A stretch of DNA of 64,000 nt, taken from Chelativorans xinjiangensis. GTDB lineage: Bacteria; Pseudomonadota; Alphaproteobacteria; Rhizobiales; Rhizobiaceae. The notes beneath the pieces were generated by a model, which saw only the letters and a list, made by a program, of their open reading frames with translations, searched no databases and was not told where the DNA came from. Of the stretch, positions 4,461-52,288 are shown piece by piece. Where the stretch lies: contig NZ_WQNH01000001.1 in NCBI RefSeq assembly GCF_009812055.1, positions 248,001 to 312,000 on the forward strand, in the 5' to 3' direction. The number at the start of each line of letters is the position of its first letter. Positions within the stretch are counted from its first letter, which is position 1. Both the position numbers and the translations under genes were made by a program.

Positions 4461-5351
4461 TTACACCGGCCGATAGATGCGTTCGGCGGTGTTCCAGAAG
4501 ATGTTGGCCTGATCTTCAGTGGAGAGCGGGGCGGCGGCGGCGCGATGGGCGTTCATCATCGACAGGTGGTCGGTCCACAGCTTCTCGATCGGAAAGTTCG
4601 AGCCGAACATCAGCCGCCTGCTGCCGAAGATGTTCGCCGCCGTGGCGACGATGAAGGAAATGAGTTCCGGGTCGTTCCTGTGAACGAAGGTGCCAAGACC
4701 GGAGAGCTTCGCGGAAACGTTGGGTTGGGCGGCCAGCATCCGCAGCCCTGCCTCCCATTCGGCCACCGTGTCGGGCGACATATCGGTCAGCATGCCGGTA
4801 TGCGTCAGGATGAACTGCGTTTCCGGATTTTCGGCAATCATCGTAGCGCCATCGCGCATCTGGCCTGGGAAGAGCTGGAGATCGAAGGAGAAGCCGTAGT
4901 CCTTCAGGTGCGCGATGTTGGCACGGACCGTCGGGTCGACGACCTGGCGCGGCGAGGCGGCGAACCGGTATTCCGGCGTCTCGTGCCAGTGGAGCTGCAT
5001 GCGCACCCCGCGCATGAGCGGATAGCGCTTCAGCCGGTCGAGCTGCGGGCGGACGTCTTCCACCGTCATGTCGGCGTAACCGACGATGGCGTGCGGCCAC
5101 CCGGTCTCCTCCGCCGTCGCCTGTACCCAGGCCGCCTCGTCCTCGAAGCGCTCCCTGGCCCAGTTGGTCTGTACGTAGACGGCCTTCTCGATGCTCGAAT
5201 CCTTCTGGTCGTCGAGGAATTCCCCGATCGTATAGTCGCGCCGGATCGGCTCGTAGGGACCGAAGATGCGGGGCACCATGGGGCCGACGAGCCAGGGCAG
5301 GTCATTCTGCCGCCAGATGTGGAAATGGGTATCGATGGCTTTCTGCATCAT
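4461..5351 (-). CDS. Amidohydrolase-2 family metal-dependent hydrolase
   Basis: A 296-residue TIM-barrel hydrolase of the Amidohydrolase_2 (PF04909) type, the group that includes lactonases and decarboxylases. The N-terminal metal motif is DTHFHIW at about residues 6-12. Later signatures are LTHTGM after strand 5-6 and GSNFPIE near the C-terminus, carrying the expected His and Asp-equivalent positions (here Asn-Phe replaces the common DxP). It is the last gene of the molybdenum-hydroxylase operon; its ATG overlaps the VWA gene stop (ATGA), with GAGGG upstream. A likely role is hydrolysis of a lactone or amide formed after hydroxylation (inference). Confidence 0.85.
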   Translation of the reverse strand: MMQKAIDTHFHIWRQNDLPWLVGPMVPRIFGPYEPIRRDYTIGEFLDDQKDSSIEKAVYVQTNWARERFEDEAAWVQATAEETGWPHAIVGYADMTVEDVRPQLDRLKRYPLMRGVRMQLHWHETPEYRFAASPRQVVDPTVRANIAHLKDYGFSFDLQLFPGQMRDGATMIAENPETQFILTHTGMLTDMSPDTVAEWEAGLRMLAAQPNVSAKLSGLGTFVHRNDPELISFIVATAANIFGSRRLMFGSNFPIEKLWTDHLSMMNAHRAAAAPLSTEDQANIFWNTAERIYRPV

Positions 5352-6490
5352 GTTGCCCTCTGCCATATCTCGGCGGCCGGTCTGGCGGGCCGTCCGAGCG
5401 AAAGCATGAAGCGCGTCAGCTCCGCCGTGGAGGAGCCGTCGACAAGATCGTCGAGCGCGGGAAGGATGGCTTGCAGTCCTGCTGTTTCGGGCCGGAAATG
5501 CGGGTCGCCGGCCAGCGGTGTGCACAGCGAGAGCCGGTGCGCCCGGGAGGAGAGCCGACGCATCGCAATCTCCATCTCCGCGTGATCGCCCCGCTCGAGA
5601 CCGTCGGAGAGGACGAGCACCGCCGCGCCGCGCGCGAAGGAGGCAAAGCGCGGCACGGACAGAAAGGCGAGCAGGGTCGGCCCGATGCGAGTGCCGCCGT
5701 CCCAGTCGTCCACGCATTCGGCAGCGCGCGTCAGCGCCTGATCGCGGTTGCGGATCCTGAGCGCCGGGGTGATGCGCGTCAGCCGCGTGCCGAAGGTGAA
5801 GACCTCGGCCATCCCAACGCCCTGAACGGCGGCGTGGGCGACCTTCAGATAGTCCTCAGTGTGAAGTTTCATCGACCCGGATATGTCGATCAGGACGAGC
5901 AGCCGGCGCGGCACCACCTGACGGCGACGCAGGATGGGTTCGGGAATGTCGCCGTCGAAACGCACGATCTCCCGCAGCGACCGGCGCAAATCGATCCTTC
6001 CGCGCGAGCGGACGCGCAGATGCCGAAACGTCCGGCGGCGTGGCAACGCCTTAGCCAGATGGCGGCCAAACCCATCGAGCGCCGTTTCCGGCGCCCGCGC
6101 GAAATGGCGCACAGCCAGCTGCTCGGCGGTGGAAGACCGTTCTCCGCTTTCGTCATGCGCACGAATCTCGATGTGCTCTTCGCAGGATCTCCCCTCGTCC
6201 TTGACCTGCGTTTCCTCCTCGTCGGCGTCATCGGAAACCGTTACAGCCGCCTCGCCGTAGAAATGGCTGCGGAAAAGTACCTCGAACTCCATGAATCGTT
6301 CCGGCGGCGGCGCGAATGTCGCAATGGCCGCCTGGCGAATGTCTTCCATGGACCTCGGACCGAGCAGCGACACCGCCTCCATGAAACTCTCGACCTGCTC
6401 AGGTGCCGCGCCATGGCCGAAGCCGCGCAACAACCGGCCGAACCCGACAAAGGGTTGCGCGCCTTTCGGGAGCGGGCGGGCCGGCATCAT
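5348..6490 (-). CDS. VWA domain protein, CoxE-like
   Basis: A 380-residue cytoplasmic protein with a C-terminal von Willebrand A domain. The MIDAS motif DISGS is at 202-206, a threonine is in GGTRIG at about 267, and an aspartate is in LSDGLERGD at about 296, so the metal site looks intact. The N-terminal half is charged. CoxE-type proteins act with a MoxR ATPase (CoxD) in maturing the active site of molybdenum hydroxylases such as CO dehydrogenase. The gene starts inside the stop codon of the MoxR gene (ATGA overlap) and precedes the amidohydrolase. The start at 6490 is set by that overlap; a longer open frame upstream lacks a ribosome site. Confidence 0.88.
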   Translation of the reverse strand: MMPARPLPKGAQPFVGFGRLLRGFGHGAAPEQVESFMEAVSLLGPRSMEDIRQAAIATFAPPPERFMEFEVLFRSHFYGEAAVTVSDDADEEETQVKDEGRSCEEHIEIRAHDESGERSSTAEQLAVRHFARAPETALDGFGRHLAKALPRRRTFRHLRVRSRGRIDLRRSLREIVRFDGDIPEPILRRRQVVPRRLLVLIDISGSMKLHTEDYLKVAHAAVQGVGMAEVFTFGTRLTRITPALRIRNRDQALTRAAECVDDWDGGTRIGPTLLAFLSVPRFASFARGAAVLVLSDGLERGDHAEMEIAMRRLSSRAHRLSLCTPLAGDPHFRPETAGLQAILPALDDLVDGSSTAELTRFMLSLGRPARPAAEIWQRAT

Positions 6491-7368
6491 TCCAGCGCCT
6501 CCTCGACCACGCGGCCGAGTTCGGGCGCGAGGAAGGTAAGGTCCTCCTCGTCCTTGATCAAAACGCCGACCGCCCTGCGGAAGGCTTCCGGCCACGGGCT
6601 GCCGCCCTTCTCCAATACCGTCGCCGCGTTGGCCCATTCGATGGCCTCGGAAATTCCGGGCGGCTTGGCCAGCGGCCGCGAGCGGATTTCGCGCACCGCC
6701 TTCGCCGCCGCCCGTGCCGTCCGCTCGGCGACGTCGCCGGCGCGCAACATGATGATTTCCGCCTCCCTGTCGGGATCGGGATAGCCGATCCAGTGATAGA
6801 CGCAGCGCCGCCGCAAGGCCTCCGCGAGTTCGCGCGTGCGGTTGGAGGTGAGCACGACGACCGGCCGCGCCGTGGCGCGGATCGTGCCGCGTTCGGGGAT
6901 GGATATCTGGAAATCGGACAGGAATTCCAAGAGCAGCGCTTCGAACTCGTGGTCCGTCCGGTCGATCTCGTCGACCAGCAGGATGTTTTCTTCAGGCGCC
7001 TTCAGGACCTTCAGAAGCGGGCGGGCGATCAGGAAACGGTCGTCGTAAAGATCGACCTCGCCCTCGCCGGCCTGACGGATGGCGAGAAGCTGGCGCTGGT
7101 AGTTCCACTCGTAGATGGCATGCGCCGGGTCTATCCCCTCATAGCATTGCAGGCGGATCAGGCTTCGGCCGAATATCTCGGCGATCGCCTTCGCCGCTTC
7201 CGTCTTGCCGACGCCCGGCGCGCCCTCCAGAAGCAGCGGCTTGCCGAGGCGGATCGCCAGGAAAATGGCGGTCGCAAGCCCGTCATCCGTCACATAGCGC
7301 GCACTGGCCAGACCCGCGGTGATCGCCTCGGGAGAGGCCGTGAGGGATGCGACCGGCTTGCGCGCCAT
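6487..7368 (-). CDS. MoxR-type AAA+ ATPase, CoxD-like
   Basis: A 293-residue AAA+ ATPase. Walker A is GAPGVGKT at 49-56 and Walker B is ILLVDEIDR at about 129-137, followed by VVLTSNRTRELAEAL (sensor 1 region). In carboxydotrophs CoxD is a membrane-associated chaperone for building the Mo/Cu site. Related MoxR/VWA pairs accompany many other molybdenum hydroxylases without copper. The gene lies 3 bp after the smaller molybdopterin-subunit gene and overlaps the VWA gene, so the two probably work as a pair on the enzyme encoded upstream. Confidence 0.9.
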   Translation of the reverse strand: MARKPVASLTASPEAITAGLASARYVTDDGLATAIFLAIRLGKPLLLEGAPGVGKTEAAKAIAEIFGRSLIRLQCYEGIDPAHAIYEWNYQRQLLAIRQAGEGEVDLYDDRFLIARPLLKVLKAPEENILLVDEIDRTDHEFEALLLEFLSDFQISIPERGTIRATARPVVVLTSNRTRELAEALRRRCVYHWIGYPDPDREAEIIMLRAGDVAERTARAAAKAVREIRSRPLAKPPGISEAIEWANAATVLEKGGSPWPEAFRRAVGVLIKDEEDLTFLAPELGRVVEEALE

Positions 7369-7371
7369 GGC

Positions 7372-8385
7372 TCAGGCCGCCGCGCCGGCGTCGCGCTGCT
7401 TCAGGGCCCGCAGCACGCGCTCGGGCGTGATGGGGAGCGTGTCGACGCGCACGCCGACAGCATCGAAGATGGCGTTGGCGACGGCCGGTATCTGCGGGTT
7501 TGCGCACATCTCGCCTGGCCCCTTCGCTCCGAATGGACCGTCTCCCGACGGACGCTCCAGGACGGCGATCTCGGTCTCCGCGAGGTCTCCCGGCCCGGGC
7601 ATCAGATATTCGTTGTAATCGCGCGCGCCATGATGCCGGTCCGGATAGTAGGGCTCCGTCGTCTCGTAGAGCGCATGGCTGATCCCCATCCACGACCCGC
7701 CTACAAGTTGCTGCTCGACCATCTTCGGGTTGAGCGCGCGACCGATCTCGAAGACGTTCTTGACCGAAAGAACGACGACCTCGCCGGTCTCCTCGTCCAC
7801 CTCCACCTCGGCCACCGTGCAGGCATGGGCATAGCAGGTGGAGGGCTTCATGGCGCCCGTCTCCGTCTCCGGATAGGAGCGCGGGACGAGGAACATGCCG
7901 CGCCCCGAAATCGAGCGGCCGTGCTTGAAATGCGCGGCGAGCGCCGTGTCGAAGATCGAGATGGAGCGCGACGGCGCGCCCTTCACGTGGATGTTGCCGC
8001 TGCCGTCGGTATCGAGGTCGGAGGCGTTCACCTCCAGTTCCTCGGCTGCGACTTCCAGCATCACCTGCCGCGCCTCGCGCGCCGCCTGGATGACGGCATT
8101 GCCGGCGCGGTGCGTGCCGCGCGAGGCGAAGGTGCCCATGCAGTGTGGCCCGGTGTCGGTATCGGCCGTGTCGACGGTGACGCTCTCGGTCGGCACGCCG
8201 ATCGTCTCGGCGCAGATCTGCGCCATGATCTGCTTCAGCCCCTGCCCGAGGTCGACGCTCGACAGCGTCACCATGAAGCTGCCGGTGGGGGTGGAGTGGA
8301 CGAGCGCCTGGGTGGGATCACCGCCCAGGTTCATGCCGGTCGGGTAGTTGACCGCCGCCACGCCGCGGCCGCGTTTTACGGCCAT
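7372..8385 (-). CDS. Molybdenum hydroxylase, C-terminal half of split molybdopterin subunit
   Basis: A 337-residue protein equal to the C-terminal half of a CoxL/XdhB-type large subunit. It keeps VDLGQG (44-49), FASRGTHRAG (86-95), the VGGSWMGISHAL cofactor segment (228-239) and GAKGPGE (286-292). In that last motif the glutamate at 292 matches the catalytic base of the family. It begins in the same reading frame as the preceding gene, separated only by TGA-GCG, and has its own ribosome site (GAGGGAGGG) overlapping the upstream end. A comparable division into two Mo-binding polypeptides is known for the nicotinate dehydrogenase of Eubacterium barkeri (NdhL/NdhM). The substrate here is unknown. 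Confidence 0.88.
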   Translation of the reverse strand: MAVKRGRGVAAVNYPTGMNLGGDPTQALVHSTPTGSFMVTLSSVDLGQGLKQIMAQICAETIGVPTESVTVDTADTDTGPHCMGTFASRGTHRAGNAVIQAAREARQVMLEVAAEELEVNASDLDTDGSGNIHVKGAPSRSISIFDTALAAHFKHGRSISGRGMFLVPRSYPETETGAMKPSTCYAHACTVAEVEVDEETGEVVVLSVKNVFEIGRALNPKMVEQQLVGGSWMGISHALYETTEPYYPDRHHGARDYNEYLMPGPGDLAETEIAVLERPSGDGPFGAKGPGEMCANPQIPAVANAIFDAVGVRVDTLPITPERVLRALKQRDAGAAA

Positions 8386-8388
8386 CGC

Positions 8389-9756
8389 TCAGCCCTCCCT
8401 CGTTTGCGAGGACATCTTCATGAAGCGCTCGTCCACCGGCCAGCCGGCGATGACGGAAGCTTCCTGCATGCATTCGATCAGCGCGGCTCCCTCCGTTGGC
8501 TGGCGGTGCGCTTTCATGTCGCCGTCGCGATAGGCGTTGATGAAGCGGAACTCCAGCGGATCCATGCCGATCAGCCGCGCCAGCTTGTCCGTCTGCACCT
8601 CGAGCGCGAAGTCCCCGATCGTCACGCCGAAGCCTCGCATGGCGCTCGACGGCGTGCGGTTGGTGTAGACGCAGTAGCTGTCGATGGCGACGTTCGGGAT
8701 CGTGTAAGGTCCGGGGAAATGCGCCGCCGATTTCTGCGCGCCATAAGGGGAATGGCGGGAATAGGCGCCGGCATCGATGTAAGCCATGACCTGGCGCGCG
8801 ACGATGCGCCCGTCCTTCATCACCCCGTCCTTGATGACGATCTTCTCCGCCGCGCGCGGCGAGGAGACCTGCATCTCCTCCTCCCTGGAGTAGATGAAGG
8901 ATACCGGGCGTCCCGTGAGCTTGGCGGCGAGGATCGCGACCGGCTCGACGGTCACATCCACCTTGCCGCCGAAGCCGCCGCCGACCGTGCCGCCGACCAT
9001 ATGCAGCTTGTGGCCCGGCATCTGCAGGATGATCGAGGCGTTGTCGAGGGTGAAGAACATCGCCTGCGTGTTGGTATAGCAGGTGAAACGGCCGTTCGCT
9101 TCGGGCGTGACGATGCAGCCGCTGGTTTCGAGCGGTGCATGCTCGATCGGCCCGGAGGAGTAGCTCTCCTCAAGTATGTGGTCGGCCTGCGCGAAACCCT
9201 TCTCCGCGTCGCCGAAGCGGACCTTCCGGCATTCGCCGCTGTCGTAGAGATAGTAGTTGCGGCCGTGATGCTCGTTGACGATGGGTGCATCGGGCTTCAG
9301 CGCCTCCTCGATGCTGAGCACGGCGGGCAGAACCTCGTAGTCCACCTTGACCTTGGCGGCTGCCTCCTCCGCCGCGCGCGCGGTCTCGGCGAGCACGGCC
9401 ACCACCGCCTCGCCCTTCCAGCGTACCTTGTCCTCGGCGAGCACGTGCTCGTCCTCCGGTCCCACCTGGATCAGGATCAGTATGGTGTAGAGGTTCTGCG
9501 GCACGTCCTTCGCCGTAATGATCCTGGCGACGCCCGGATGTTTCTCCGCCTCGCTCGTGTCGATGCCGCGGATGCGTGCGTGGTGGTGCGGGCTGCGCAC
9601 CATCTTCAGATGAAGGAGGCCCGGAAAGGTGCGGTCTGCGAAATAGGCGGTCCTGCCGGTGACATGTCCCCTGATGTCGGAACGCGGGCGCGGCTGGCCG
9701 ATCTCGACGAAATCGTCGGTGCGCTCGTCGGCGAAATAGCTTTTCGACAGCTTCAT
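8389..9756 (-). CDS. Molybdenum hydroxylase, N-terminal half of split molybdopterin subunit
   Basis: A 455-residue protein equal to the N-terminal half of the family's large subunit. It starts with the small a/b hammerhead domain (about 20-130) and continues into the first Mo-cofactor domain. That domain carries VGGTVGGGFGGK, the dithiolene-binding glycine motif, and SAMRGFG. It stops at TGA immediately after TREG, exactly where full-length homologues have a flexible linker. Together the two halves add up to about 793 residues, the normal size of the undivided subunit. The start has GGGAGACGGG upstream and lies 11 bp after the [2Fe-2S] gene. Confidence 0.9.
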   Translation of the reverse strand: MKLSKSYFADERTDDFVEIGQPRPRSDIRGHVTGRTAYFADRTFPGLLHLKMVRSPHHHARIRGIDTSEAEKHPGVARIITAKDVPQNLYTILILIQVGPEDEHVLAEDKVRWKGEAVVAVLAETARAAEEAAAKVKVDYEVLPAVLSIEEALKPDAPIVNEHHGRNYYLYDSGECRKVRFGDAEKGFAQADHILEESYSSGPIEHAPLETSGCIVTPEANGRFTCYTNTQAMFFTLDNASIILQMPGHKLHMVGGTVGGGFGGKVDVTVEPVAILAAKLTGRPVSFIYSREEEMQVSSPRAAEKIVIKDGVMKDGRIVARQVMAYIDAGAYSRHSPYGAQKSAAHFPGPYTIPNVAIDSYCVYTNRTPSSAMRGFGVTIGDFALEVQTDKLARLIGMDPLEFRFINAYRDGDMKAHRQPTEGAALIECMQEASVIAGWPVDERFMKMSSQTREG

Positions 9757-9767
9757 TCCCGTCTCCC

Positions 9768-10250
9768 TCAAGCAGCGGACGTGGAATTGGCGCGCGCGGC
9801 GAGAAGCACGGCCTGGATGATCGGCTCGTAGCCGGTGCAGCGGCAGACGTTGCCGGAGATCGCCTCCACCACATCGGCCCTGTCCGGATTGGGATTGCGC
9901 TCGAGCAAGGCCGCGGCGGCCATGATCATGCCCGGCGTGCAAAAGCCGCATTGCGCCGCGAACGCGTCCTCGAAGGCGCGCTGCAGGGGATGCAGCACTT
10001 CGCCGTTTGCAAGCCCCGCCGTGGTGCGGATTTGCGCGTCGTTGCACGTCTCCGCCAATGTCAGGCACGACAGCCGCAACTCCCCGTCGACCATCACTGT
10101 GCAGGCGCCGCAGGTACCTTGAAGGCACCCGCCCTTGGGCGAGGTGTCGCCCATCTTGTCGCGCAGCGCGGCGAGCAGCGTGCTTCCGCTTTCCACGAAC
10201 TCAGCCCGCTCGCTGCCGTTCAGCGTGAATTGGACCGGAACCTTTGCCAT
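9768..10250 (-). CDS. Molybdenum hydroxylase [2Fe-2S] subunit, CoxS-like
   Basis: A 160-residue iron-sulfur subunit. The plant-ferredoxin-type cluster uses C42, C47, C50 and C62. The second cluster, next to the Mo site, uses C101, C104 (CGFC), C136 and C138 (CRC). Both sets are complete. It passes electrons from the molybdopterin subunit to FAD. There is no signal peptide, so the enzyme should be cytoplasmic. The start at 10250 has GGGAGGAAGCG upstream. It lies between the FAD and molybdopterin genes, giving the M-S-L order of CO-dehydrogenase-like operons. Confidence 0.95.
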   Translation of the reverse strand: MAKVPVQFTLNGSERAEFVESGSTLLAALRDKMGDTSPKGGCLQGTCGACTVMVDGELRLSCLTLAETCNDAQIRTTAGLANGEVLHPLQRAFEDAFAAQCGFCTPGMIMAAAALLERNPNPDRADVVEAISGNVCRCTGYEPIIQAVLLAARANSTSAA

Positions 10251-10299: not shown

Positions 10300-11100
10300 C
10301 TAGCCGAGCAGCAGTCTGCCCAGATGAACGGGCAGTACCTCACGCCTGTACCAGGCGCTGGCGATCGCGTCCGTTGGCGGATCGATGCCCTCGAGCGCCG
10401 CCGTCAGCGCGGGCGCTATGCCTTCCTTCGTGCGCGGCCGCCCGACAAGTGCCGCTTCGGCCGCATGCGTGCGGATTGCGCGGTCGGCCATGCAGCCAAG
10501 GGCGATCCTTGCCTGAACGACCGAGCCGGCTTCTTCGCGAATATCGGCGGCGATGGTGAGAACGGCCGCACCTTTGGGATGCACCCGGCTGACTTTCAGG
10601 AACCGGAAGCTGTCCGTTGCCGGCGCAGCGAAGGTCACGGACGTCACCAGCGCGGAAGCGCCGAGGCTGTCTCGTTCCTGCAGGAAAGCTTCGAGCGCCA
10701 TTTCGCCGCTGCCGCTGACGGACACCTTCGCGTCGAGAGCGAGAAGTGCGACCGTGAAATCCCCATAGGGCGCGGGCGCAAACAGATTGCCGCCCACCGT
10801 CGCCATATTGCGGACCGCGGGGCCACCCACCGCACGCGCCGCCGGCGCAAGATAGCTCAGCCCGGGATGCGCGAGGACCATGCCCATCGTCACGGAGGCA
10901 CCGACCCTCACGCCGGCGTCGGATGTTTCAATCGCCGACAGGGCAGGATCGGTCGTCCTGACAATGGTCGAAAAGGAGAGGTCCCCTTCATTCACAGCCC
11001 GGACCACGAGCGTCCCGCCGCCCATGTAGCGAACACCGGACGCACCAAGGGCCGCCTGCGCTTCGCTTGCGGTTGAAAAGGTCTGAAGGCTCATACCCAT
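10300..11100 (-). CDS. Molybdenum hydroxylase FAD subunit, CoxM-like
   Basis: A 266-residue FAD-binding subunit, slightly shorter than the usual 280-290. The N-terminal FAD site is MGGGTLVVRA at about 26-35. The second signature, VGGNLFAPAPYGD, corresponds to the family TxGGNLxxxxxxxD that contacts the flavin. The C-terminal part is the CO_deh_flav_C fold. The start has GGGAGGACCGGCG upstream; a second ATG follows two codons later. It sits 15 bp after the SRPBCC gene and 49 bp before the iron-sulfur gene, on the same strand. Confidence 0.92.
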   Translation of the reverse strand: MGMSLQTFSTASEAQAALGASGVRYMGGGTLVVRAVNEGDLSFSTIVRTTDPALSAIETSDAGVRVGASVTMGMVLAHPGLSYLAPAARAVGGPAVRNMATVGGNLFAPAPYGDFTVALLALDAKVSVSGSGEMALEAFLQERDSLGASALVTSVTFAAPATDSFRFLKVSRVHPKGAAVLTIAADIREEAGSVVQARIALGCMADRAIRTHAAEAALVGRPRTKEGIAPALTAALEGIDPPTDAIASAWYRREVLPVHLGRLLLG

Positions 11101-11115: not shown

Positions 11116-11556
11116 TCAGCCTCCCGCGAAGCGCTTCTTCAGCGCGTCGAACCCGCCCTGGAAAACATTCGCTCCCATCCCCTCGGCGATCTTTTCAGCT
11201 TCCTCGGCGGGCGCGTCGAAACTTGCCGTCCAGATGGCGCAGGTGCGCTCGCCGTCGGTGATCGGGATGAGCTTCAGCGTGGCGACATGGTTCGAGATCG
11301 GCTGAGGCGTCTCGAGAATGGAATAGGTGACGCTATAATCGCGATCGGAGAGGCCCAGCAGCTTCTCCCTGATCGTCGCCCCGCTAGCGATCTCGAACTT
11401 GCGCACGCATCCGATCTCGCTCGATGGCCCGCCACCCTCGATCTCGCTCTTGACCATTCGCGGATGCCAGTCAGGAAGACCGTTGAAGTCGCGGATGCAC
11501 GCCCAGACATCGGAGGCGGGTGCATCGATGACGCTTGAGACCGTGACCGTCGCCAT
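11116..11556 (-). CDS. SRPBCC family protein (CoxG-like position)
   Basis: A 146-residue START/SRPBCC-fold protein of the polyketide-cyclase-2 type. The opening is typical: a b-strand, then APASDVWACIRDFNGLPDWHP. Such proteins bind hydrophobic ligands. In CO-dehydrogenase-like operons a homologous fold (CoxG) is thought to help anchor or mature the enzyme. It is the first gene after the AraC regulator and 15 bp before the FAD subunit, so it probably belongs to the same transcript. The start at 11556 follows AAGGAGCG; an upstream in-frame ATG has no ribosome site. It is shorter than classical CoxG, so the role is uncertain. Confidence 0.8.
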   Translation of the reverse strand: MATVTVSSVIDAPASDVWACIRDFNGLPDWHPRMVKSEIEGGGPSSEIGCVRKFEIASGATIREKLLGLSDRDYSVTYSILETPQPISNHVATLKLIPITDGERTCAIWTASFDAPAEEAEKIAEGMGANVFQGGFDALKKRFAGG

Positions 11557-11674
11557 GAGAAAACGCTCCTTGCTGCCAGCCCTCACGGCGATCATAGCCA
11601 GCCTGCCGGACGATGCTTATCAATGCGTCTGGAACGCCTATCAAACAGTCTGAAAAAATGGAGCGGCGCGGCGG

Positions 11675-48973: not shown

Positions 48974-50028
48974 ACCGTTTCGACTATATCCGGCCGGCCA
49001 GCGTGCCGGAGGCTGTGGAAGCTGCGGCTGTACCCGGGTCGACCTATCTCGCGGCCGGTACCAACCTGCTCGACCTGATGAAGGGCGGGACAGCACGGCC
49101 CGAGCGGGTCATCGACATCACGCGGCTGCCCGGTCTCGATCGCATCGAATGGCTGCCGGACGGCAGTGTGCGGGTCGGTGCGCTGGTTAGAAATTCGGAC
49201 CTTGCCTATGACGACCGCTTCGCGCGGACCTTTCCGGCCGTTGCCGAAGCGCTGCTTTCGGGAGCCTCGGCACAGCTTCGCAATGCGGCGACCATAGGCG
49301 GCAATCTGATGCAGCGTACGCGCTGTGCCTATTTCCACGATCTGGCAAGCGCCTGCAACCGACGGGCACCGGGATCGGGCTGCGACGCGCGCGAAGGGGA
49401 AAATCGCCTCCACGCCGTGCTCGGCTGGAGCGAGCACTGCATTGCCACCCACCCCTCCGATTTCTGTGTGCCGCTCGTGGCGCTCGATGCCGTGGCCGAG
49501 GTGGAAGGCACGCGGGGCGCCCGCGAGATTCCCGTCGACGCGCTGCATGTCCTGCCCGGCGCCGCGCCGGAACAGGAAACGGCATTGGCGCCCGGCGAAC
49601 TGATCGTTTCGCTCAAGATTCCAGCCGAAGCGACAGCATTTGCGCACAATGCGCGCTACCTGAAACTGCGCGAGCGCACTTCCTTTGCCTTTGCCGTCGT
49701 ATCAGTGGCCGCCGCGCTGGAAATGGAAGCCGGTGCGATCCGCAAGGCGCGCATCGCGCTCGGCGGCGTTGCGGCGAAACCTTGGCGGGCGCGCGAGGCG
49801 GAGGCTTCGCTGGCAGGCGCTGAGGCAACCCCCGAGGCATTCGCCAAGGCAGCCGAAATCGCGCTCGCGGAGGCGCGCCCCTCCGGCGACAACGCCTTCA
49901 AAATCGAACTGGCGCGCCGCATCGTCGCGCGCGCCCTGACCCTCGCGCTCGAGGGCACGCCGGAAGCCATCCCTGCGCTGCCGGCCTCGCCCTTCTCGAC
50001 AACTCCCGGAGCGAACCATGCCGCTTGA
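48970..50028 (+). CDS. Aldehyde-oxidoreductase-type FAD subunit, PaoB-like
   Basis: A 352-residue FAD subunit. FAD sites are LAAGTNLLDLMKGG at about 28-41 and TIGGNLMQRTRC at 108-119. An insertion carries cysteines at 119, 129, 138 and 157, the pattern that in PaoB holds an additional [4Fe-4S] cluster; it is absent from the CoxM-like subunit of the first hydroxylase in this window. The start overlaps the iron-sulfur gene (ATGA), and the end overlaps the large-subunit gene by 11 bp. Confidence 0.93.
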   Translation: MNRFDYIRPASVPEAVEAAAVPGSTYLAAGTNLLDLMKGGTARPERVIDITRLPGLDRIEWLPDGSVRVGALVRNSDLAYDDRFARTFPAVAEALLSGASAQLRNAATIGGNLMQRTRCAYFHDLASACNRRAPGSGCDAREGENRLHAVLGWSEHCIATHPSDFCVPLVALDAVAEVEGTRGAREIPVDALHVLPGAAPEQETALAPGELIVSLKIPAEATAFAHNARYLKLRERTSFAFAVVSVAAALEMEAGAIRKARIALGGVAAKPWRAREAEASLAGAEATPEAFAKAAEIALAEARPSGDNAFKIELARRIVARALTLALEGTPEAIPALPASPFSTTPGANHAA

Positions 50029-52288
50029 GACCACTTCTCCCCTTCCCCAGCACCGTCGGCACGGGTCCAGTGCCGGCCAGCCGCTGACGCGCCGCGACGG
50101 CGTTCTCAAGGTCACCGGGCGCGCGACCTATGCGGCCGACAACCACCCCGATGGCATTCTCTACGCCGTGACGGCCGTAAGCAGCATCGCGCGCGGGCGC
50201 GTCACGGCGCTCGACGTCGAGGCCGCCAAGGCGCATCCCGGCGTCGTCGAGGTTCTCACACCGGCCAACCGACCGCCGCTGGCGCATGATCCGGACGAGA
50301 AGATGCCGCCCTTCGGCTTCCGCGTGGAGGTGCTGCAGGACGATACCGTGCGCTACGTCAACCAGCCGATCGCGATCGTGATCGCCGAGACGCTGGAGGC
50401 CGCGACGGAAGGTGCCGCGCTGCTCAACCCCGTATATGAAGTCGAGCCGGCTCGCACGGACCTGGAAAGCGGCAAACGCTTCGATCCCGAGGGGATCGGC
50501 ATCGGCGCACCGGCACGCACGGCCCATGGCGACATCGAGGCGGGTCTCGCCGCCGCCGTTCGGGTGACGGAGGCCGACTATGTCACTCCGCCGCAATATC
50601 ACAATGCGATGGAACCGCACGCCGTCGTCGCCCAGTGGGACGGCGACCGCGTGACGATCGACATGCCGAACCAGACGCTGGCGCTGAGTTGCGCATCCTA
50701 TGCGGCCTATTTCGGCATTCCGGCCGAGAACGTGCTGATCCGCTCGCCCTTCCTCGGCGGCGGCTTCGGCTCGAAGGCGATCCTCAACGGGCCGCAGATC
50801 CTCGCCATCCTTGCCGCGCGCATGCTCAACCGGCCGGTCAAGCTGGCGCTCACCCGAGCGCAGATGTACGGCCCGGTCGGGCACCGCGGCCGTACTTGGC
50901 AGAAGCTGCGCCTCGGCGTGGATGAAGAGGGGCGCCTGACCGCACTTCACCATCAGGCGCTTTGCACCACCTCCAGCTTCGACGAATTTCTCGAGCCGGC
51001 GGCCAACGCATCGCTGCCGCTCTATGCGAGCCCCGCCATTCTCGCCGAGCATGAAGGCCTGCGGCTCGACGTCGGCACGCCGGGGCCGATGCGTGCGCCG
51101 GGCCTCGCATCCGGCTCGGCTGCGCTTGAAGTCGCGATGGACGAGGCGGCCGAAGCCTGCGGCATGGACCCGCTCGACTTCAGGCTCGCCAACTACGCCG
51201 AAACGGAGCCGGTTACCGGCAAGCCCTTTTCCTCCAAGGCGCTGCGCGAATGCTATGCCGAGGGAGCCAAGCGCTTCGGCTGGTCCGGACGGCCGCTCGC
51301 GCCGCGCACGATGCGCGACGAAAATGGTTTCCTCATCGGCTGGGGCATGGGCACGGCGGTCTTCCATTGTCCGCACTTTCCGGCTGAGGCGCGTGCCACC
51401 TTGCGCGCCGACGGCACGGCGCTGATGGAAACGGCAGGCGCCGATATGGGGCAAGGCGCCTGGACGGCGCTTGCCCAGATCGCGGCAGAGGCTCTGGGCC
51501 TCGATCCCGACCAGGTCGAGCTCCATTCCGGCATATCGAGCCTGCCCGACGGCGGCATCGCTGGAGGCTCCGGCCATACCGCCAGCGCGGGACTGGCACT
51601 GCACAATGCCGGCGAGGATGCGATCGCCCGGCTTGCGGAGCTCGCCACCAACGATCCCGCCTCGCCGCTTTTCGGCGCCGGGAATATCGGCGTTGTCGCC
51701 CGCTCCGGCCGGCTTCACCGCCGCGACGACGAGAGCCGCGGCGAGAGCTATGCGGAGATTCTGGCGCGTGCCGGTCGCAGCGACGTCGTCGGCACCGCCA
51801 AGACCGCCCGCGACCCGGCGGTTGCTTCGGCCCACGCGATGTACTCGCACGGCGCGGTCTTTGCCGAGGTGAAGGTCGATCCCGACCTCGGCCAGATCCG
51901 GGTGGCGCGACTGGTCGGAGCTTTCGCTGCCGGCAGGATCATCAATCCCCGTCTCGTACGCAGCCAGTATTTCGGCGGCATGATCTGGGGCGCCTCCTTC
52001 GCGCTGCACGAGGAAGCGATTGCCGACCGCCGGACAGGGCGGATCATGAATGCCGATCTTGCCGAGTATCACGTTCCCGTCAACGCGGACGTGCCCTCGC
52101 TCGATGCGATCCTGATCCCGGAGGACGATCCTCACGTCAATCCGATCGGTGTGAAGGGAGTGGGCGAGATCGGCATCACGGGTACGGTGGGCGCTATCGC
52201 CAATGCGGTCTGGCACGCGACCGGCGTGCGTGTCCGGCGCTTCCCGGTTCGTGTCGAAGATCTCCTTATCAGCCGGGAATTCGCCTAG
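50018..52288 (+). CDS. Aldehyde-oxidoreductase-type molybdopterin subunit, PaoC-like
   Basis: A 756-residue undivided large subunit. It has the hammerhead domain at about 30-140, FLGGGFGSK for the dithiolene, GADMGQGAWT, and the C-terminal VKGVGEIG with the catalytic Glu at about 717. It should oxidise aldehydes or N-heterocycles with water as oxygen source. No chaperone of XdhC type follows in the operon. The stop TAG is the CTAG edge of a dispersed repeat. Confidence 0.95.
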   Translation: MPLETTSPLPQHRRHGSSAGQPLTRRDGVLKVTGRATYAADNHPDGILYAVTAVSSIARGRVTALDVEAAKAHPGVVEVLTPANRPPLAHDPDEKMPPFGFRVEVLQDDTVRYVNQPIAIVIAETLEAATEGAALLNPVYEVEPARTDLESGKRFDPEGIGIGAPARTAHGDIEAGLAAAVRVTEADYVTPPQYHNAMEPHAVVAQWDGDRVTIDMPNQTLALSCASYAAYFGIPAENVLIRSPFLGGGFGSKAILNGPQILAILAARMLNRPVKLALTRAQMYGPVGHRGRTWQKLRLGVDEEGRLTALHHQALCTTSSFDEFLEPAANASLPLYASPAILAEHEGLRLDVGTPGPMRAPGLASGSAALEVAMDEAAEACGMDPLDFRLANYAETEPVTGKPFSSKALRECYAEGAKRFGWSGRPLAPRTMRDENGFLIGWGMGTAVFHCPHFPAEARATLRADGTALMETAGADMGQGAWTALAQIAAEALGLDPDQVELHSGISSLPDGGIAGGSGHTASAGLALHNAGEDAIARLAELATNDPASPLFGAGNIGVVARSGRLHRRDDESRGESYAEILARAGRSDVVGTAKTARDPAVASAHAMYSHGAVFAEVKVDPDLGQIRVARLVGAFAAGRIINPRLVRSQYFGGMIWGASFALHEEAIADRRTGRIMNADLAEYHVPVNADVPSLDAILIPEDDPHVNPIGVKGVGEIGITGTVGAIANAVWHATGVRVRRFPVRVEDLLISREFA

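Follow-up and report, generated by a model that had tools for sequence, protein, structure and literature searches.

A divided molybdenum subunit in Chelativorans xinjiangensis, with a gene joint of variable register among its relatives

The divided subunit and its operon

Within the window, the 64,000-nucleotide stretch of Chelativorans xinjiangensis DNA analyzed here, a molybdenum (Mo) subunit is encoded by two consecutive minus-strand genes, named MoL (first half) and MoM (second half), which stand in one reading frame (Table 1). An earlier note on this DNA had described two same-frame halves of 455 and 337 aa with TGA-GCG between them, and the minus-strand letters confirmed this. MoL carries the hammerhead domain Ald_Xan_dh_C and the first cofactor domain MoCoBD_1, the matches extending up to residue 408, while MoCoBD_2 begins at residue 3 of MoM. 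The Pfam domain limits therefore place the cut in the inter-domain linker, ahead of the second cofactor domain, as had been proposed. A Shine-Dalgarno-like (SD) sequence, GAGGGAGGG, is contained in the last MoL codons, and its GGAGG (8398-8394) ends 8 nt ahead of the MoM ATG.

Table 1. Features of the divided Mo subunit and its operon (positions in the window).
Feature	Position	Strand	Matches or basis
Amidohydro_2 hydrolase, final gene of conserved operon	4461..5348	-	domain + operon comparison
VWA_CoxE protein	5348..6490	-	domain + operon comparison
MoxR-type AAA ATPase, CoxD-like by domain and position	6487..7368	-	domain + operon comparison
MoM, second half of Mo subunit, 337 aa + stop	7372..8385	-	MoCoBD_2; 3HRD_B best PDB match
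Joint: TGA (8391-8389) + GCG spacer (8388-8386), then MoM ATG at 8385	8386..8391	-	
Shine-Dalgarno-like GAGGGAGGG for MoM, within last MoL codons	8393..8401	-	
MoL, first half of Mo subunit, 455 aa + TGA	8389..9756	-	Ald_Xan_dh_C, MoCoBD_1; 3HRD_A best PDB match
FeS subunit, two [2Fe-2S] domains	9768..10250	-	domain matches
FAD subunit	10300..11100	-	domain matches
SRPBCC-type protein (Polyketide_cyc2), CoxG-like by position	11116..11595	-	domain + operon comparison

The order SRPBCC-FAD-FeS-MoL-MoM-MoxR-VWA-amidohydrolase was found again in most loci compared, in a comparison based on open reading frames that missed a few subunits. Matches to MoxR, VWA and the amidohydrolase were absent from the Salinigranum locus (L097) and from L130-L132, and the SRPBCC match from L094, L170, and L171, some of these stretches being short. 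Division of the Mo subunit is a trait of the MoL/MoM subunit family and not a habit of the genome (5.7 Mb in 118 contigs), since all seven undivided Mo-subunit paralogues fetched from the same genome read as fused. One of these seven, alike in subunit type, lies inside the window, at 50018-52288 on the plus strand.

Spread of the division and constraint on both halves

MoL is present in 5 of 16 genomes of the genus, C. xinjiangensis included, and in each of the four sister species that carry it a TGA and 3 further nt occupy the corresponding position. A sense codon instead of the stop in sister genomes, the outcome that the earlier note had set against its own reading, was seen in none of these 4 MoL-bearing species, and the shared joint makes a local sequencing error unlikely. 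Among the best 80 of 113 relatives found by a contig search, the closest named locus was that of Chelativorans alearense (98% identity in MoL), and the subunit was split in 80/80. The gap between the halves in these 80 was +1 in 68, +3 in 11, and +2 in 1; MoL ended in TGA in 79 and TAA in 1, and MoM began with ATG in 79 and GTG in 1. All 80 also had a match of at least 4 nt to the anti-SD complement ahead of MoM, compared with 22% of the remaining ATG triplets within these two frames (n = 5349). The ribosome site that had been noticed before the MoM ATG is thus both present in the window and, within this best-80 set, conserved beyond chance.

At the cut-offs used, matches were found in 49 of 297 genomes of the order, 8 of 385 of the class, and 17 of 398 of the phylum; two of the 49 order matches (G921 and G779), with MoM at the contig start, were excluded. 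One phylum match (G696, locus L123), at about 40% identity, was fused. When 154 loci of the family were re-read together, 151 were split (a frameshifted locus, L093, being counted among them), none was fused, and three were short stretches without MoL, all of which proved split when fetched wider. Removal of identical MoM DNA and of L093 left 138 distinct loci, the C. xinjiangensis locus included, and these were split without exception (138/138). The split set spans Mesorhizobium, Rhodobacterales, an actinobacterium, and a haloarchaeon, and includes loci of Nonomuraea (L094, 62% in MoL), Shinella (L095), and Yoonia (L096). The haloarchaeal locus, on a plasmid of Salinigranum rubrum (L097), has identities of 54% in MoL and 62% in MoM, which points to transfer between bacteria and archaea, and its halves overlap by 8 nt.

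Both halves look to be under purifying selection, as judged from dN/dS values of 0.035-0.193 for MoL and MoM each over seven pairs. All 96 split loci checked had the motifs RGFG and GGGFGGK. GPFGAKGxGE, a stricter string, occurred in only 32 of these 96; the Glu of GAKGPGE, which we take to be the likely catalytic Glu of the second cofactor domain, is aligned throughout the split rows of the 55-row tree set. That the locus is a broken gene, through pseudogene formation or sequencing error, has next to no likelihood: one relative does have a frameshifted MoL, but the same joint recurs in four sister species and dN/dS is low in both halves. The frameshifted relative, L093, lies on a plasmid of Sinorhizobium sp. 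BG8; its MoL frame is broken in the last quarter, and its MoM is intact at 90% identity.

The domains found, Ald_Xan_dh_C, MoCoBD_1, and MoCoBD_2 together with FeS and FAD subunits, are those of the xanthine oxidase family, in which the Mo subunit holds the cofactor and electrons are relayed by the FeS and FAD subunits. MoL and MoM are very probably separately initiated, translationally coupled subunits that together form the Mo-cofactor part of a four-polypeptide hydroxylase or dehydrogenase of this family. MoL would supply the hammerhead and first cofactor domain, and the second, which has the probable catalytic Glu, would come from MoM; as each brings a different cofactor domain, neither half would be expected to work alone. 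Judging from gene anatomy alone, ribosomes would halt at the MoL stop and restart at the MoM ATG, and such coupling would keep the amounts of the two proteins in step.

The earlier note had seen in the joint a real gene fission fixed by one stop mutation. The genuine two-gene split stands, while the single stop in this lineage does not agree with a subunit divided in 138/138 loci. Most likely the fission is old and has been carried along with the operon, and the stop codon of this genome looks incidental.

Reading register at the joint and readthrough

While the division itself is constant across the 138 loci, its register is fluid. The halves are separated by a short out-of-frame gap in 98, stand in frame in 21 (the window and 20 others), and overlap in 11, and in 8 MoM lies 0.6-1.6 kb downstream. 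Short joints drift from -8 to +12 nt, the overlaps being of -1 or -8 nt. The intervals of five of the eight loci with a distant MoM were read, and contained a gene for an EamA-family transporter (3/5) or a GFA-family protein (2/5); in these loci (L167, L168, L169, L172, and L173) the intervening gene is on the MoL/MoM strand. A tree built from all 138 with FastTree requires at least 10 changes of in-frame state, at least 23 of gap class, and at least 12 of stop-codon identity, the MoL stop being TGA in 125, TAA in 7, and TAG in 6.

These data bear on the proposal that a single stop divided the gene in this lineage and that low-level readthrough of the TGA still yields a fused subunit. In its favor, MoL and MoM share a continuous frame across the stop in the window and in 20 more of the 138 loci, and TGA is the stop in 125/138. 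TGA is the leakiest stop codon, and slight readthrough in this genome is thus possible. However, fusion by readthrough is impossible in the 117/138 loci that are not in frame, so readthrough cannot be a general mechanism; the register switches often, MoM has a ribosome site of its own, and no tRNA-Sec was recognized in the genome. Moreover, the in-frame state is often gained and lost, and its share of 15%, against about a third expected for a random register, makes it look as if it is not kept for readthrough. The proposal is accordingly very improbable, and the importance that the earlier note gave to the intact frame, as a route to a fused protein, finds no counterpart in the relatives, low-level readthrough in this strain apart. 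Programmed TGA readthrough with selenocysteine was also rejected, as the frame is not kept in relatives and tRNA-Sec was not recognized: eight covariance-model matches all coincided with ordinary tRNAs (Ser, Gly, Tyr, Leu, or Phe in ARAGORN), one of which, tRNA-Ser(tga), scored above the Rfam cut-off. The in-frame register of C. xinjiangensis looks neutral: the joint takes many forms that are interchangeable, and this is one of them.

Related molybdoenzymes and a C-terminal tail in a sister clade

A four-subunit plan is itself already known from the nicotinate dehydrogenase of Eubacterium barkeri, NdhFLMS, which is made up of four polypeptides (FAD, FeS, MoL, and MoM; PDB 3HRD; PMC10331938). 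The likeness that the earlier note drew to divided NdhL/NdhM held: the best PDB matches of MoL and MoM are 3HRD chains A (NdhL) and B (NdhM) over nearly their whole length, which indicates an identical cut site. The two systems thus share the four-polypeptide plan and the division of the Mo subunit, which in both falls between the two cofactor domains, MoCoBD_1 and MoCoBD_2. They differ in their neighbors, as the operon in the window has MoxR, VWA, SRPBCC, and amidohydrolase genes instead, and 6-hydroxynicotinate reductase was not recognized among the window operon genes examined.

Could the split have been inherited from a common divided ancestor, making the enzyme an orthologue of NdhL/NdhM? 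The same cut site and the best PDB matches of both halves are consistent with this. The trees, by contrast, place the MoL/MoM family in one clade (100/100) in 55- and 41-row sets, with 32/32 and 24/24 of its rows split, and in both trees NdhL/NdhM and a split subunit of Phaeobacter (L099) sit among fused subunits (99/99 and 100/99). Several fused neighbors of these two come from clusters annotated with 6-hydroxynicotinate reductase. Forcing all split rows into one clade was rejected (p-AU 0.006, or 0.008 with L099 left free), in trees with several long branches and an NDH row of only the residues aligned to the query. Common descent with NDH as a split enzyme was rejected by this AU test, with the same two caveats, which make an independent fission likely and not certain; orthology with NdhL/NdhM is correspondingly unlikely, and two or more separate cuts at this joint are probable. 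NDH and L099 grouped together (82/71) in one tree and stood apart in the other. L099, from a plasmid of Phaeobacter piscinae, is a split Mo subunit outside the family with a 1-nt overlap at its joint, and its first half is part of one annotated gene that reaches well upstream of the MoL match.

Other molybdoenzymes resemble the locus in part. The operon shares its subunit domains and its MoxR, VWA_CoxE, and SRPBCC accessory genes with aerobic CO dehydrogenase (coxMSL with coxD/E/G). In Oligotropha, CoxD and CoxE contribute to maturation, and a role in bringing CO dehydrogenase to the membrane has been proposed for CoxG (PMC4240915). By analogy, the MoxR, VWA, and SRPBCC genes may do similar work here. 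CoxL, however, is one chain, unlike the divided Mo subunit of the window. The CoxL-type active-site motifs are AYRCSFR and AYRGAGR; neither string occurs in MoL, which has RGFG instead. On this active-site motif, identity with CO dehydrogenase was rejected, and absence of the CO dehydrogenase loop makes CO an unlikely substrate. Enzymes of the 4-hydroxybenzoyl-CoA reductase or XdhA type have the same domains, 1rm6 is the second-best PDB match, and the corresponding NCBIfam models rank high, but these subunits are undivided and the scores are far below the NCBIfam cut-offs. Going by its published description, the four-gene set ndrB1B2B3B4 of Sphingomonas melonis TY possibly includes another divided Mo subunit, as ndrB3 and ndrB4 are both reported to resemble a large Mo subunit (PMC5239795).

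In three relatives (L029, L124, and L170), neighboring genes encode ABC transporter parts, a short-chain dehydrogenase, an aldo/keto reductase, a gluconolactonase-isochorismatase fusion, and a metallo-beta-lactamase-fold protein; from this gene content, oxidation of an aldehyde or lactol is weakly suggested. Carriage by phages was considered and rejected, as a single near-identity search of a phage collection gave no match. Neither the MoL/MoM split family nor its link to flotillin, described below, was found in the open-licence literature, outside which many journals lie.

Outside the window, a bimodal length distribution of MoL stands out among the 138 loci. Counted from position 440, the C-terminus follows after 14-19 residues in 93 loci and after 86-191 in 45; RRR closes each of the 45 long tails and 0/93 short ones. 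Such Pro-rich extensions ending in RRR occur in L095, L096, L102-L106, L115-L122, L124-L129, L133, and most of L151-L190, and the DNA upstream in tail-bearing loci encodes a flotillin and two SRPBCC proteins. Across 43 distinct C-termini, the residues ahead of RRR are mostly R-F-S-S-x-x-G-x; these termini had been selected for their RRR, so that the RRR tally of this set is circular, whereas the 138-locus tally is free of that choice. In many cases the stretch coding for RRR also serves as the SD of MoM; RRR is nevertheless kept with varied codons in seven loci with a far MoM, so the peptide itself seems to be selected. On the 138-locus tree, the tail needs one change, and the window's own branch kept the split and has no tail.

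Flotillin linkage was compared in 38 genomes, those already read plus some of the genus and family. Of 23 tail-bearing genomes, 22 have a flotillin gene (Band_7 and Flot domains) at a distance of 3.8-6.5 kb from MoM, and the other has it on a different contig; none of 15 tail-less genomes has a linked flotillin, and 3/15 have a more distant one elsewhere. As tail and flotillin are confined to one clade, this counts as one evolutionary event and not as 22 independent ones. Tentatively, the fission may have freed a new C-terminus whose tail docks the enzyme on a partner from the same operon, most likely membrane-anchored flotillin, giving a scaffold-tethered molybdoenzyme, though the odds are somewhat against this. 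A term search of a paper on prokaryotic SPFH proteins (PMC2636767) gave no match. Antisense ORFs confounded the clustering of small ORFs.

Overall, the same linker of the Mo subunit has apparently been cut at least twice in evolution. One split version is stable across bacteria and an archaeon, so its halves must assemble well as separate chains. An in-frame stop such as that of C. xinjiangensis should be taken as a recent break only with caution. If the docking holds true, the flotillin-linked tail would offer a possible reason why two genes are useful.
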